From positions 124,001 to 188,000 of the forward strand of contig CANMGS010000002.1 in NCBI GenBank assembly GCA_947497475.1: a DNA stretch of 64,000 nucleotides. The letters are read 5' to 3'. This document shows positions 52,041 through 58,614 of this stretch, one piece after another; positions within the stretch are counted from its first letter, which is position 1, and every line of letters starts with the position of its first letter. The notes below the pieces were generated by a model that was given only the letters and a program-made list of their open reading frames with translations, was not told the DNA's origin and made no database searches. A program made the position numbers and the translations under genes. The DNA comes from an uncultured Amylibacter sp. (lineage in GTDB: Bacteria; Pseudomonadota; Alphaproteobacteria; Rhodobacterales; Rhodobacteraceae).

Positions 52041-52117
52041 CGGGGCGTGGCGCAGTCTGGTAGCGCACTTGTTTTGGGTACAAGGGGTCGTTGGTTCGAA
52101 TCCAGCCGTCCCGACCA
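52041..52117 (+). tRNA. tRNA-Pro(UGG)
   Basis: 77 bases including encoded CCA. The acceptor pairs CGGGGCG with CGTCCCG (one G-T), followed by A-CCA. The anticodon stem CTTGT/ACAAG holds loop TTTGGGT with anticodon TGG at 52075-52077. The T arm is GTTGG-TTCGAAT-CCAGC. C1-G72 is normal for bacterial tRNA-Pro. A terminator follows. Parts of both acceptor strands recur after nrdJ. Confidence 0.97.
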
Positions 52118-52226: not shown

Positions 52227-52674
52227 TTTTCAAAGAATTTGATGTGGCATAATAAAATTGACGTTAAGTCATGGATTTTTTTTTATTGGTGTCCATTTTA
52301 TAGATTCGCACCAAAATCCGACATTCAATTAGAGTAGCGCAGTATAGATAGTTTCTGTGACCAACCATAATTTCATAGTGTTTTTAAGGGATTGTATCGC
52401 ACTCCAGTTGTAAGACGGACTATCAATTTTAGGACATCTTAAAAGTCTCATTTTTTGAAGTGGTTTTTGGGAAGTTTCGGTCAACAACTAAATATGACTA
52501 TTTTGTGAATATTTTCGTTGACCCATAGTGTGTCTTGGTACAGGTTGTGTGCAGTTACTTCTACAGGCACTACATGTAGTACCCAGGGGCAGGGGTAACA
52601 TTATAAGAATAATTCGGACCTACGTTAGTCGATTCAGGCAACGTGATAGGTTTTGCAACGTGACAGGGGAAAAA
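52227..52674 (+). other. Long gene-free leader of nrdJ
   Basis: About 450 bp with no supported frame. A perfect 12-bp palindrome ACTACATGTAGT lies at 52569-52580. The conserved B12-box elements of a cobalamin riboswitch were not found. The final 15 bases hold the ribosome-binding site AGGGGA. If transcription starts near 52233, the mRNA leader is about 440 nt. Confidence 0.45.
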
Positions 52675-55600
52675 ATGAAGATCGACCGCCGATTTACTGA
52701 CTCAACAAAAGATGCATACGCAAGCATCGAGTTCCATAAGACAACTTCCGAAATTCGCAATCCAGACGGCTCAGTCGTTTTCTCATTAGAGAACGTAGAA
52801 GTGCCAACAGGTTGGTCCCAAGTGGCCGCAGATGTGATTGCACAGAAATATTTCCGCAAAGCGGGTGTTTCATCTGATCTAAAACGCATTAAAGAAAAAG
52901 GCGTTCCTGAATTTCTTTGGCGTTCAGAGCCAACAGATGGCAAACAGGTAAAAAATTCAGACGTATACAGCGGCGAAACATCCTCTAAGCAAGTGTTCGA
53001 CCGTCTTGCAGGCGCATGGGCATACTGGGGCTGGAAAGGTGGCATGTTTGACACCGAAGCTGATGCAAAGACATATTATGATGAAATGCGTTACATGCTG
53101 GCCAGCCAAATGGCAGCGCCAAACAGCCCACAGTGGTTCAACACTGGTCTTCACTGGGCATACGGCATTGATGGCCCATCACAAGGCCATCACTATGTAG
53201 ATTACAAATCTGGTAAACTGACGAAATCAAACAGCTCTTATGAGCATCCACAACCACACGCGTGTTTCATCCAGTCTGTTGAAGATGACTTGGTAAACGA
53301 TGGCGGTATTATGGATCTTTGGGTGCGTGAAGCGCGTTTGTTTAAATACGGTTCTGGTACAGGCACGAACTTTTCATCACTGCGTGGTTCAGAAGAGTCA
53401 CTCGGTGGTGGTGGTAAATCATCTGGCTTGATGTCTTTCCTTAAAATCGGTGACCGCGCTGCGGGTGCGATTAAGTCTGGTGGTACGACACGTCGTGCAG
53501 CCAAGATGGTGATCTGTGATATGGATCACCCAGATGTGGAAGAGTTCATCACTTGGAAAGTGAAAGAAGAGCAAAAAGTGGCCTCACTGGTGGCTGGCTC
53601 TAAACTTCACGAGCAAAAGTTGAACGAGATTTTCAGCGCAATTCGCAACTGGGATGGCACAGAGTTAGATGCGTTTGATCCGAAGAAAAATGCGGGCCTG
53701 AAAACGGCTGTTAAATCAGCTAAAAAATCAATGATCCCAGAAACTTATGTGAACCGTGTGCTTCAGTACGCGAAGCAAGGTTACAGCAGCATTGAGTTCC
53801 CAACATACGACACAGATTGGGATTCAGAAGCATATGTAACAGTAGCTGGTCAAAACTCGAATAACTCTGTTCGTGTGACAGACGCATTCTTGAACGCTGT
53901 AAAGAATGACGGCGACTGGGAATTGATCCGCCGTACAGATGGTAAAGTTGCCAAAACAGTCAAAGCTCGCGATCTGTGGGAAGAGGTTGGTCACGCAGCT
54001 TGGGCCTGTGCTGATCCGGGTGTTCAATATCACGATACAATCAACGCGTGGCACACATGCCCAGAAGATGGTCTGATCCGCGGATCGAACCCATGTTCTG
54101 AGTATATGTTCCTAGACGATACAGCTTGTAACTTGGCATCGATGAACTTGTTGAAGTTCTACAAAGATGCCAAGTTCCAAGCCGATGATTATATCCACGC
54201 GACACAATTGTGGACGATGACATTGGAAATCTCTGTTTTGATGGCGCAGTTCCCATCAAAAGAGATTGCACAGCGTTCATATGAGTTCCGTACATTGGGT
54301 CTGGGTTATGCCAACATCGGTGGTTTGCTGATGAATATGGGGTACTCATATGATTCCGCTGAGGGTCGCGCACTTTGTGGTGCGTTGACGGCGATCATGA
54401 CTGGTACATCTTATGCAACATCTGCGAAGATGGCGAAAGAATTGGGGCCATTCCCAGGGTATCAGAAAAACGCGAACCATATGTTGCGTGTGATGCGCAA
54501 CCACCGTAACGCGGCTTATGCTGAGACTGAAGGCTATGAAGGTTTGGAAGTGAAGCCTGTTCCTTTGGACCACGGCAACTGTCCTGATCAAGACTTGATC
54601 AAGCTATCAACAGCGGCTTGGGATGAAGCGGTGAAATTGGGCGAAGCTCATGGTTATCGTAACGCACAAGTGTCAGTGATTGCGCCAACAGGTACAATCG
54701 GTTTGGTGATGGACTGTGATACAACAGGTATCGAGCCAGATTTTGCATTGGTTAAGTTTAAGAAACTTGCAGGTGGTGGTTACTTTAAAATCATCAACCA
54801 ATCTGTGCCAGCAGCGCTGGAAATGTTGGGATATTCTTCGTCACAAAGCGAAGAAATCATTTCCTACGCCGTTGGTCACGGAACAATGGGCAATGCACCT
54901 GATATCAACCATACAACGTTGACGGGTCATGGTTTTGGCAAGGATGAGTTGGATAAAATCGAAGCAGCGCTTCCGACAGCATTCGACATTCGTTTCGTGT
55001 TCAACCAGTGGACATTGGGCGAAGACTTCTGCAAAGGCACATTGGGTATTCCTGAAACACAGCTGAACGATCCAGCGTTTGATTTGTTGTCACACCTTGG
55101 TTTCAGCAAGAAACAAGTGGAAGCAGCGAACAATCACGTTTGCGGTACGATGTCTTTGGAAGGTGCGCCGCATCTGAAAGAAGAGCATTACGGTGTGTTT
55201 GACTGTGCAAACCCTTGTGGTCGTATCGGTACACGTTACCTGTCTGTTGAAAGCCACATCACTATGATGGCTGCGGCGCAATCATTCATCTCTGGTGCGA
55301 TCTCTAAAACGATCAACATGCCAAATGATGCAACGATCGAAGATTGTCAGGAAGCATATGAATTGTCTTGGTCATTGGGTGTGAAAGCGAATGCTTTGTA
55401 CCGCGATGGATCAAAACTGTCACAACCATTGGCATCAGCACTGGTAGACGATGATGATGAGGATCTGGATGAGGTATTGGCCGAAGCACCAGCAGGTGAG
55501 CGCGCTACTATCCTTGCTGAGAAGATCGTTGAGAAAGTGATCGTTAAGGAAGTGAACCGCCGTTCACGTGAAAAACTTCCAGAGCGTCGCAAAGGTTATA

Positions 55601-56322
55601 CGCAAAAAGCTGTTGTTGGTGGGCATAAAGTTTACCTGCGTACAGGTGAATATGAAGACGGCTCCATCGGTGAAATCTTTATCGATATGCACAAAGAAGG
55701 TGCTGGTTTCCGTGCCATGATGAACAACTTCGCTATCGCGGTGTCTGTTGGCCTGCAATACGGTGTGCCGCTAGAAGAGTTTGTGGATGCGTTTACATTC
55801 ACACGTTTTGATCCTGCTGGCATGGTGCAAGGCAACGACAGCATCAAGAATGCAACATCTGTTTTGGATTACATCTTCCGTGAATTGGCTGTGTCTTACC
55901 TAGATCGTTCTGATCTGGCGCATGTTAAGCCGACTGGCGAAACATTCGACGAATTGGGTCGTGGTGTTGAAGAAGGTCAAAGCAACATCCAACCTGCATC
56001 TGATGATGCGGTAGCGATGCTGAAACAGGTTGTGTCTCCAGGCTATCACCGTAACCGCATGCCGCAAGAATTGGTTGTGCTTCAAGGTGGTTCTGGAAAT
56101 CTTTTCGGGGGGGGAGGCCAGCAAGTTGCTGGTTCAACCGAAGCGGTGACAGCGGCTGCGGCCCAAGTGGCAGCCCCTGTCACCAAAATGGATGATCGCA
56201 CCAAAGCCAAAATGCAAGGCTATGAAGGCGACGCTTGTGGCGATTGCGGTAACTATACATTGGTTCGCAATGGCACATGTATGAAATGTAACACTTGCGG
56301 GGCAACCAGCGGGTGTAGCTAA
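52675..56322 (+). CDS. nrdJ: Vitamin-B12-dependent (class II) ribonucleotide reductase
   Basis: ATG 52675 with AGGGGA 5 bases upstream gives 1215 residues; the frame opens earlier without support. It shows [39 protein letters not shown] with the active-site Cys region, [27 protein letters not shown] and HNTCGT-like [10 protein letters not shown]. An acidic linker (DDDDEDLDE) precedes the C-terminal lobe and a four-Cys tail ([15 protein letters not shown]). It makes dNDPs without oxygen using adenosylcobalamin. The first structured repeat follows its stop. Confidence 0.96.
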
Positions 56323-56328
56323 GAGTTA

Positions 56329-56441
56329 GGGGCGTGCGGACTATCTGCCGTCCCGACGATTTCAGGCCGCAGGCAACAAACTAGAGCGGTTATAAAGAGC
56401 CTGAATCATAGACTGGGGGGATTTATCCCCCCTCTTTTTTT
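56329..56441 (+). ncRNA. Structured repeat copy 1, ending in an intrinsic terminator
   Basis: It starts 6 bases after the nrdJ stop. Hairpin I: GGGGCG/CGTCCC plus GCGGA/TCTGC with a CTA loop (56329-56354). Hairpin II: TTCAGGC (56361-56367) with GCCTGAA (56399-56405). Terminator: six G and six C around ATTTAT (56415-56432), then TCTTTTTTT. It is about 86% identical to copy 2, and differences keep the pairing. It may be the nrdJ terminator, a 3'-UTR small RNA, or both. Confidence 0.6.
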
Positions 56442-56452
56442 ATGGCCAATAG

Positions 56453-56647
56453 ATATTTTGTGTAATTCACTTCACTGTTGTTGAGCGTCTGGGGGAATTG
56501 ACAGGGGAAGACCCTGAAAATCAAACGCAAGACTTGGAATGCCGCGTGATTTATAAGTCTGGACGTAGAACAGTAGAGGTACGCGACCCGTTCCCCGAAT
56601 TAGAGGAAAAGATTGCAACGCAGCATCAAGCGTATTGGAACCGTTAG
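56453..56647 (+). pseudogene. Protein-like open frame without a start, possible gene remnant
   Basis: After a stop at 56450 the plus frame stays open for 64 codons to TAG 56645-56647. The last 50 residues read like a real hydrophilic protein end (LTGEDPENQTQDLECRVIY, then RTVEVRDPFPELEEK). No credible start codon or ribosome-binding site is present. It may be the 3' end of a gene truncated at the repeat. I do not recognise the family. A minus-strand frame over the same bases is less protein-like. Confidence 0.4.
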
Positions 56648-56649
56648 TT

Positions 56650-57108
56650 CTAAATCCAGTCGCCGAGGATTTCACCCATATTTTGCATTATACCAATCAG
56701 TAATATGACACCTACAACCAATAGGATTGCCCATGTTACCACCTGAAATAAGATTGCACCGATGCCAAGTGCCAAAGCACCAATAATTGGGCGCTTTGCT
56801 TCGTGACGGATATAGCCAATAATGCCCAGTACGACAGCGCTACCTGCAAGAAGCGTGCCAATCAATTTTAAGGTGTCATCGATATTCCAAGGATTGACCT
56901 GTGGTTCGGTTTGCGGAGCACCTGTCAAAGCACGCGCTGCTGCTTGACGTATTTCCCCAGCGATTTCACCAATGCTGACGGAAATATCTTGTTGTGGGGT
57001 AAACGGGCCTATCCAAAAATGTGTCATGACAATAAGAAGGGCGCAGGCACCGAAAATAACGCCAAAAAAACTGGCAGTTGGGCGCGGCTTTAGTATCGTT
57101 TGTGACAT
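56650..57108 (-). CDS. Inner-membrane protein, unknown
   Basis: This 152-residue protein has membrane segments at about 14-36, 80-98, 108-125 and 128-146. A periplasmic loop (37-78, QQDISVSIGEIAGEIRQAAARALTG in two parts) carries a predicted amphipathic helix. The pattern is seen in unannotated Rhodobacterales proteins, but I cannot name a family. It lies between the two structured repeats. Its stop is 2 bp from the remnant frame's end. Confidence 0.65.
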   Translation of the reverse strand: MSQTILKPRPTASFFGVIFGACALLIVMTHFWIGPFTPQQDISVSIGEIAGEIRQAAARALTGAPQTEPQVNPWNIDDTLKLIGTLLAGSAVVLGIIGYIRHEAKRPIIGALALGIGAILFQVVTWAILLVVGVILLIGIMQNMGEILGDWI

Positions 57109-57316
57109 AATTCAATACTCCGTTAAGGTTTGTGCCTTATTACATAGGAGTATGACCAGAGTATGACTTCAGATAAGTCATTGAAACTATGTCTTCTTTT
57201 TGTACAAGAAGGCATAATGATGTCTAATGGCATCATCTTTTATTAAGAAGCTGCAACGTGTATAGAAACCGTTATTAAATATTTAAGGAACTCTGCACGA
57301 GTAGTTATAAGCTAAT

Positions 57317-57427
57317 GCCGTGCGGACTATCCGTCGCCCTAGAAATTTCAGGTCGCAGGCAACAAGCTAGAGCGATTATAAAGAGCCTGAATCACAAACT
57401 GGGGGGATTTATCCCCCCTCTTTATTT
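57317..57427 (+). ncRNA. Structured repeat copy 2, overlapping the MFS gene end
   Basis: Hairpin I: GCGGA-CTA-TCCGT (57322-57334). Hairpin II: TTCAGGT (57347-57353) with GCCTGAA (57385-57391). Terminator: G6-ATTTAT-C6 (57401-57418), then TCTTTATTT. The last 19 bases are antisense to the 3' end of the MFS gene. No tRNA-like acceptor pairing is kept here. Promoter signals upstream are weak. Role unknown. Confidence 0.55.
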
Positions 57428-58614
57428 GCAGCGTTGAAGACGACCCAGCTTAAAAAAGCTGTACATAGCAAAGAAAGGCTGAGGGATGCCATTGGCAACC
57501 CAAATATATCGGTTGCGATACCAATCATATAAGCGCCTAAAGCAGAAGCACCTGTCGCGATAACGATCCACAAAGACATCACACGTCCGCGCATGTCATC
57601 TGGGAGCCCTGCCTGCATTGAGGATTGTAGGGTTACGCCAAGGTGAGTGCTGCAAAAGCCCAAAACAGCAGCAGCTGTCAATGTAAGAGGCCATTCGGAA
57701 GATGTTCCGAATATAACAATGCTGATAAAACCTAATACCGTCATGCTAAGTGTTTGTATGGAAATCATTTTATGGTACTTAGATGACCCCAATGATTTCG
57801 CGACTGCGGCAATCAAAGCACCGCATCCAACTGCTGACCCAAGCTGGCCCAAACCTGTTGGCCCTTTTTGGAATACGCCATCTGCAACAACTGGCAGGAT
57901 TTCAGCAATGCCGCGTACGGATAAAGCCATGAAGGCTGTAAAAATGATCACCAACCGTAATTCTGGCCTGTTAGCAATGTAGCGAAAGCCATTTGTTAAT
58001 GCTGTTAAAAATGGTTCCTTGCTGCCTTTTGCTTCGCGTTCGCGTGGATGCATGAAGCGAATTAAAAGGATTGCTGGTAAATAGAAAAACACTGATACAA
58101 TCAAAGCCGCTGTTATCCCCAATTGGTCAATGATTAAGCCACCAAGGGCAGGGCTAATCATGCGGGCAGAGTTAAAGTTTAAGGCTGCAAGAGCTATGAC
58201 TGAACTGACATTTTCTTTTGGAACCAAACGTGGGGCAAGTGACATGCGAACAGGATGATGGGCGGATGAGACCATACCTATGAGTGTCGATATGACAGCC
58301 AATAATAAAGGTGTCAGTTGGTTAGTCAGATGAATGCCAAGTAAGAGCAATACGCAGCAAATCATAGCTCCGTTTGTAAAATAAGCCGCTTTTTTAATGT
58401 TAGTGCGGTCAATGATAACACCGAAAAATGGGCCGCCTACAAACGATGGAATTAAAGATAGTGCGGCAACGAGCCCAACAAAGCTTGCAGATTGGGTCAT
58501 ATCCCATGCCAGCCAACCGACAAGAACACGCATGATCCACAGGCCATAGACTGAGAAAAACGAACCCGTAAAATAAAGACGGAAACTTGGTGATTTTAGC
58601 GCAATTAAATTCAT
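57409..58614 (-). CDS. MFS permease
   Basis: This 401-residue protein has about twelve membrane segments of the MFS_3/enterobactin-exporter type. It shows SFRLYFTGSFFSVYGLWIMRV, GPFFGVIIDRTNIKKA (motif A) and GCGALIAAVAKSLGSS. The substrate is unknown. The gene follows selO directly: the selO stop and this ATG are adjacent. The last three codons are encoded in the terminator of repeat copy 2. Confidence 0.82.
   Translation of the reverse strand: MNLIALKSPSFRLYFTGSFFSVYGLWIMRVLVGWLAWDMTQSASFVGLVAALSLIPSFVGGPFFGVIIDRTNIKKAAYFTNGAMICCVLLLLGIHLTNQLTPLLLAVISTLIGMVSSAHHPVRMSLAPRLVPKENVSSVIALAALNFNSARMISPALGGLIIDQLGITAALIVSVFFYLPAILLIRFMHPREREAKGSKEPFLTALTNGFRYIANRPELRLVIIFTAFMALSVRGIAEILPVVADGVFQKGPTGLGQLGSAVGCGALIAAVAKSLGSSKYHKMISIQTLSMTVLGFISIVIFGTSSEWPLTLTAAAVLGFCSTHLGVTLQSSMQAGLPDDMRGRVMSLWIVIATGASALGAYMIGIATDIFGLPMASLSLSLLCTAFLSWVVFNAANKEGG

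Follow-up and report, generated by a model that had tools for sequence, protein, structure and literature searches.

A predicted structured RNA family at the 3' end of nrdJ in Rhodobacteraceae

Comparative analysis of a 64,000-nt stretch of DNA from an uncultured Amylibacter sp., hereafter the window, indicates that a sequence of about 110 nt behind nrdJ (copy 1) is the local member of a family-wide structured RNA situated at the 3' end of the nrdJ transcription unit. On the evidence of sequence comparison, the element is a structured noncoding RNA family under selection for base pairing, because its stems covary beyond shuffled controls and its loop nucleotides are conserved. It appears to be confined to the family of the window (Rhodobacteraceae and kin, to judge from the titles of the hits that bear names).

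The repeat pair and its gene neighbourhood

A repeat search in the window detected a direct repeat on the same strand at 56315-56441 and 57301-57427 (127 nt, 83% identical, spacing 986), the start of which lies inside the last nrdJ codons, slightly upstream of that given in a preliminary description of this DNA. BLAST comparison of copy 1 with copy 2 in the 3.02-Mb genome yielded 87% identity over 109 nt (E 1.8e-32), in agreement with the two same-strand copies of about 110 nt near nrdJ noted in that description. No further full copies were found in the 3.02-Mb genome, the four other BLAST matches being 14-15 nt in length with E > 1.

Three parts can be distinguished in each copy, all on the forward strand. 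In copy 1, hairpin I at 56329..56354 was obtained from the minimum free energy (MFE) fold, the equivalent stem covarying in relatives with the common hairpin I. Hairpin II at 56361..56405, with the conserved loop CCGCAGGCA...GAGCGGU, is based on fold, alignment and covariation, and hairpin III with its T-run at 56415..56441 is read from the sequence as an intrinsic terminator, with terminator-like hairpins in aligned relatives. The corresponding parts of copy 2 are hairpin I at 57320..57337 (MFE fold), the lower stem of which has been lost, hairpin II at 57347..57391 (fold, covariance-model match and alignment), and the terminator at 57401..57427, the reverse strand of which holds the last codons and stop of a gene for an MFS transporter. 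The fold of copy 1 displayed a z-score of -3.81, with 0 of 200 dinucleotide shuffles as good, compared with -1.81 and 11 of 200 for copy 2, whose weaker fold arises because the lower part of hairpin I is unpaired. The terminator and T-run had been described as identical; this holds for the G6-ATTTAT-C6 stem, but the tails differ (TCTTTTTTT vs TCTTTATTTG). Stem differences had likewise been said to keep pairing. Inspected by eye, those between the copies are one-sided or G-U changes with no double compensations, so that covariation is contributed by other genomes, and in the lower part of hairpin I of copy 2 the pairing is lost. No sigma-70-like promoter was found over 56200-57480 in a simple scan, and a small RNA would thus need processing or another promoter type.

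The gene upstream of copy 1, nrdJ, encodes a class II (vitamin B12-dependent) ribonucleotide reductase at 52675..56322 on the forward strand; the ORF 52528-56322 carries the Pfam domains Ribonuc_red_lgC, Ribonuc_red_2_N and TSCPD, and the ATG at 52675 is preferred over the GTG of the ORF start at 52528 from the sequence and the start regions of relatives. Between the copies lie a deaminase gene remnant at 56486..56644 (forward strand, ends approximate), located by blastn to L036 and intact in G018 (Pfam dCMP_cyt_deam_1), an ORF at 56650..57108 (reverse strand) for a 152-aa protein with no Pfam hit, which in G018 sits between the deaminase and NmrA genes, and an NmrA-like gene remnant at 57251..57304 (reverse strand), identified by comparison with G018, where the gene is intact. 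The MFS gene (ORF, Pfam) occupies 57409..58614 on the reverse strand. Its stop codon at 57409-57411 falls on the reverse strand of the copy 2 terminator stem. Upstream of copy 2, the first ORF of 90 aa or more has the opposite orientation. The sole Rfam 15 match at gathering score in the window is a tRNA at 52041-52114; a mir-9418 match at 57169-57229 scored far below gathering and was taken as chance.

Consensus structure and covariation

In the consensus, the common hairpin I reads GGGGCGGG-UGCG-CUCGCCCC, with a UGCG tetraloop in most aligned members; in Amylibacter-type members, among them those of the window, the sequence of hairpin I is mostly different. Hairpin II consists of CGACGUUCAGGC...GCCUGAACGGCG enclosing CCGCAGGCA and CGRGCRGU, and its loop is near-invariant (CGCAGGCA...GRGC). 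There follow a linker, mostly GCGAAACU, and a terminator of variable sequence. A terminator-like end is found after hairpin II in the aligned members, and it is the least conserved part of the element.

Two covariance models were used. R1 was built from 17 sequences and describes hairpins II and III, both window copies included, and R2 comprises all three parts in 45 sequences, namely 22 found by R1 and 23 loci from an exact-pattern scan of named genomes. The scan gave 94 loci, of which 92 were extracted and 61 remained after 90% redundancy removal; alignment A3 contains 59 of these 61 together with the two window copies. The alignment of R2 (A4) omits the window copies and members with other hairpin I sequences, and two of its entries, L057 and L117, are the same element. 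For the whole fold in A4, 15 of 23 pairs displayed two-sided changes and 93.2% of cells were paired, 0 of 500 shuffles equalled the alignment on any of five measures, and pairing fell to 25-45% when the partners were slid. Because the exact-pattern scan had supplied 23 of the A4 sequences, a second count was made on 24 sequences found by the model (A5), with 10 of 23 pairs two-sided, 93.6% paired and again 0 of 500 shuffles on five measures. A5 comprises 22 of the best-scoring 30 R1 loci (186 genomes matched) and the two copies of genome G390; it omits L038-L040, L044, L045 and L048-L050, most of which have the other hairpin I type or had been used before. Hairpin II alone was assessed in A6, which holds the best-scoring 30 R1 loci of the 186 matching genomes, both G390 copies and copy 2, with no rows dropped. 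Here, 10 of 15 pairs were two-sided and 87.5% paired, with 0 of 500 shuffles on five measures. The earlier proposal that selection acts on RNA structure is therefore supported by covariation in all three sets.

The exact-pattern scan fixes core positions by construction and was not used for the claim of invariance, which refers to the A6 set (the best 30 R1 loci and three others), where all 33 rows have the same CGCAGGCA. For the putative inner CCGC/GCGG pairs, pairing amounts to 94.1%, 93.1% and 92.9% in A4, A5 and A6, respectively, with no two-sided change. Other pairings within hairpin II were viewed by eye and by column counts and set aside. A coding peptide in the element was rejected on account of the loop lengths, which fall in all three classes modulo 3 among 93 sequences.

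Distribution across genomes

R1 matched 186 of 295 sampled genomes of the family at E<=0.01 under strict filters, and R2 matched 205 of 295, with one match in 200 genomes and 2-3 in five; the latter count is a lower bound, since the large searches use strict filters. The homologues across the family, for which the preliminary description had proposed a search, are more than simple terminators. In a draw from the order, R2 matched 121 of 149 genomes, and every row listed belonged to the window's own family, so this draw provides no test beyond the family. In a draw from the class, 9 of 289 genomes matched, four from the own family and five from others at E 0.0015-0.009, which is about what chance would give, as E<=0.01 per genome over some 285 genomes leads one to expect such matches. 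The nrdJ C-terminus was not found in the loci of these five. One R2 match, in G459 from another family of the class (L197 1501-1548, E 0.0065), includes the hairpin II part only and contains CCGCAGGCA inside a GC-rich stem near an apparent tRNA gene; it is taken as chance, or may be a distant relative.

A DNA search of 61 genomes (the own genome, 32 others of the genus and more distant ones) detected the hairpin II-bearing element in 16 others, after nrdJ in 16 of 16. At E<=1, 36 of the 61 genomes matched, mostly through short chance matches. The match in G041, outside the family (E 2.9e-4), concerned the terminator part without nrdJ and was rejected. The remaining genus members gave no convincing match in the DNA search, one of which, G004, was later matched by R2. 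Among the 80 titles listed from the exact-pattern scan, the genera Shimia, Roseobacter, Sulfitobacter, Amylibacter, Lentibacter, Phaeovulum, Albidovulum, Marivivens and Poseidonocella are represented. A dispersed or mobile repeat (REP-like or IS-derived) was rejected, given one match in 200 of the 205 matching genomes and none in plasmids or phages for one 130-nt query. The exception to this low copy pattern is an orphan copy beside Tni genes in G390.

Linkage to nrdJ and the orphan copy

Of the 94 pattern-found loci fetched, 89 show the nrdJ end, and all 89 carry the element downstream of nrdJ and on its strand; in the other five, that end is missing or does not align. The distance from the nrdJ stop to hairpin II in these 89 loci is 33-787 nt. 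Furthermore, all 47 family loci found by the model and fetched (41 genomes) have the nrdJ C-terminal region upstream in the same orientation. The position of copy 1 downstream of nrdJ, as originally noted, matches these relatives. By crude ORF calling, 54 of 77 loci have a convergent next ORF and 23 a co-directional one.

It can be observed that the element stays behind small cargo ORFs inserted after the nrdJ stop. Small ORFs occur in the long gaps between nrdJ and the element at L069, L071, L079, L088, L097, L100, L121, L126, L133, L136, L144 and L158, several with a GGAG-like ribosome site. Four gap ORFs were scanned, giving an M78/IrrE peptidase, a GIY-YIG-like protein below the Pfam cut-off, and 47-aa and 85-aa proteins with no Pfam hit. 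At L166 (G103) and L170/L183 (G093), a small inserted gene is followed by a repeat of the nrdJ terminus, covering its last 38 and 60 nt, which would fit a role of this terminus as a target for the insertion of small cargo genes; such repeats were present in 3 of 171 loci tested (two being the same place in one genome) and in 0 of 60 shuffled.

An R2 match was absent in 90 of the 295 family genomes under strict filters, by which some may be missed. Probing 19 of the first 20 listed of these 90 (G089 was left out) located the nrdJ C-terminus in 17. In the 16 no-match genomes read, the nrdJ stop is followed by other sequence over up to 420 nt, and nrdJ therefore works without the element. TIGR02504 matches 293 of 295 family genomes, but the profile also picks up a second 775-aa reductase, so that element presence is not comparable with nrdJ presence. 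In the genome of the window, a second class II reductase-like protein of this kind (775-aa frame) is located at G000:C1:395039-396670 and scores above the TIGR02504 cut-off.

The sole exception seen to nrdJ linkage is the orphan copy in G390 (L203 3127-3247, reverse strand), which adjoins TniQ and TniB genes; a Mutator-family transposase gene lies at a greater distance, and the 7.5 kb taken contains no nrdJ. The nrdJ-linked copy of G390 has the stem CCAAG/CTTGG vs CCTTG/CAAGG in the orphan, and GCCGCAGGCA, ACGAGCGGTGAACGATGAGC and GCGAAACT are unchanged between the two. Retention of loop, linker and terminator in the orphan, with the stem altered by compensation, suggests a function apart from nrdJ. 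In another genome, G295, a full copy is followed by tandem repetition of its linker and terminator part (L204 3679-4150).

Origin and status of copy 2

In L009, L010, L011, L012 and L013, nrdJ is followed by the element and a convergent MFS gene, the stop of which lies in the reverse strand of the terminator. The window MFS gene ends inside the copy 2 terminator in the same way, implying that copy 1 keeps the nrdJ junction and copy 2 the ancestral MFS junction. In L016, L020, L023, L127, L141 and other relatives, the MFS stop lies outside the terminator. G018, the closest relative, has a single element copy, after nrdJ, followed by a GntR-aminotransferase regulator, a transporter-like gene (EamA-like by eye), the deaminase gene, the 152-aa gene, the NmrA-like gene and the MFS gene; in the window, only the deaminase remnant, the 152-aa gene and the NmrA remnant are found between the copies. 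Copy 1 and the G018 element are 96% identical, and copy 2 is less identical to both (85% to copy 1 and 82% to G018), indicating that copy 2 changed faster.

Copy 2 most likely remains from an insertion event through which nrdJ and the MFS gene came to lie apart. A gene block would have been inserted between the two genes and the element duplicated, one copy remaining at each junction; subsequently, the G018 line would have lost copy 2 and the line of the window most of the block. Copy 2 may have kept a role in terminating transcription of the MFS gene. Whether both window copies are functional sibling small RNAs is a separate question, and an affirmative answer seems unlikely. In favour, hairpin II and its loop are retained in copy 2 (38.6 bits, E 4.7e-9 over 116 kb searched), but hairpin I is weakened, a simple scan detected no promoter near copy 2, the nearest relative has one copy, and the position is explained by the MFS junction. 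With these points and the opposite upstream ORF, the view of copy 2 as a second gene on a par with copy 1 is not supported.

Function

The conserved loop nucleotides within covarying stems imply a partner, be it a protein, a ligand or target RNAs. We favour copy 1 as a trans-acting small RNA derived from the nrdJ 3' UTR, a reading for which belief and doubt are evenly balanced, because such RNAs are frequent in Rhodobacter sphaeroides and because an orphan copy exists. The element is co-directional with nrdJ and downstream of its coding region, and an intrinsic terminator forms its 3' end at the sequence level. RNA polymerase would transcribe nrdJ and any cargo ORF and stop at the hairpin III terminator, after which an endonuclease such as RNase E would free a stable transcript about 110 nt long. 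Its conserved hairpin II loop would then act in trans by pairing with mRNAs or binding a protein, and the amount of regulator would follow the expression of nrdJ. The nrdJ start region was rejected as a pairing partner, since complementarity in duplex energy over 48 loci was not above chance (mean z -0.15).

The main rival, ranked close behind the small RNA reading and a real possibility though a less probable one, is a cis-acting 3'-UTR element, in which fold and terminator would protect nrdJ mRNA or time its decay, possibly with a protein bound to the loop and with no RNA acting in trans. The linkage to nrdJ in all fetched family loci but one fits such a role, as does the arrangement of two hairpins with a highly conserved loop as the last feature before the terminator. 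The orphan in G390 argues against it, as this copy keeps its conserved parts and a compensated stem away from nrdJ, and a number of nrdJ genes lack the element. The conserved loop and asymmetric interior within a covarying stem, and a linked gene for a B12-dependent reductase, could also point to a riboswitch-like ligand sensor at the 3' end, for example one coupling the cobalamin or nucleotide state to termination or decay. This is improbable, however, given the proportion of convergent next ORFs described above and no Rfam match at gathering score. A riboswitch or 5' leader in the usual position was rejected: the element follows nrdJ, has a terminator at its 3' end and is not upstream of a co-directional gene, the next gene being convergent in the window (MFS) and in 54 of 77 loci, so that it is unlikely to be a leader. 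A mere intrinsic terminator with incidental upstream hairpins has very little likelihood and was rejected, for although a terminator-like end is shared by aligned members and the nrdJ of G022 has only a terminator downstream (L023), conservation is lowest in the terminator, while hairpins I and II show covariation and the loop hardly varies.

The small RNA reading extends to a bolder proposal, which we consider doubtful: that a family-wide RNA regulator, made from the nrdJ message, ties other genes to B12-dependent deoxynucleotide synthesis, with a new kind of loop partner and with mobility. If so, the coupled genes might be, for example, those for B12 use, the cell cycle or the second class II reductase; the partner bound by the hairpin II loop, whether protein, ligand or target set, would belong to a kind so far undescribed; and the RNA would be able to move away from nrdJ, as the orphan beside the Tni genes may illustrate.

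Significance and comparison with known RNAs

The element adds a well-supported RNA family, tied to the B12-dependent reductase, to a large bacterial family including Shimia, Roseobacter, Sulfitobacter, Amylibacter and others. It makes testable the idea of the nrdJ message as the source of a regulator that links B12 status and DNA precursor supply to other genes, and with the covariance model and the invariant loop, probing, deletion and pull-down in culturable strains can be aimed precisely.

A tRNA or another Rfam RNA was rejected as the identity of the element, as no Rfam 15 family reached gathering score over it in the window or in 15 of the 94 homologue loci; one homologue at a permissive threshold gave 13 matches, all below gathering. 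The nrdJ RNA motif of Weinberg et al. 2017 is reportedly located upstream of nrdJ. We take that motif to be among the Rfam 15 families; it shares the gene name with the element, which has no Rfam 15 match at gathering score. The nrdJ RNA motif is listed among conserved cis-acting elements in PMC8388888.

No published report of the element was found in literature searches confined to articles without their supplements. The string "nrd" is absent from the texts of PMC8625941, PMC5107571, PMC4809877 and PMC8632094, and "ribonucleotide" from PMC8307010. The numbering of the motifs in PMC8632094 suggests further HRC-8 motifs, possibly in its supplement, where an earlier listing of the element is possible. 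With this reservation, the element is regarded as new, without a match in Rfam 15 and set apart by description from the motifs in that text.

Among the motifs in PMC8632094, HRC-28-1 resembles the element in probably lying in the 3' UTR of the upstream gene, in its intrinsic terminator end and in a convergent downstream gene, but differs in occurring mostly in Polynucleobacter, in its six stems and in having another upstream gene. HRC-8-4 and uORFC-8-2 are, like the element, structured RNAs restricted to the order Rhodobacterales, but the former lies between cco operons and the latter upstream of cysS (PMC8632094). Parallels also come from R. sphaeroides, where, according to PMC8625941, 3'-UTR-derived small RNAs are established (SorX, CcsR1-4 and UdsB/C/D/H) and 16 small RNAs were predicted in 3' UTRs. 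These are likened to the element by description rather than by sequence, the transcript of the element being predicted and the string "nrd" being absent from that text. As with the element, they concern related bacteria and an RNA in an mRNA 3' UTR, and in UdsB, C, D and H the predicted 3' end is likewise at a terminator (PMC8625941).
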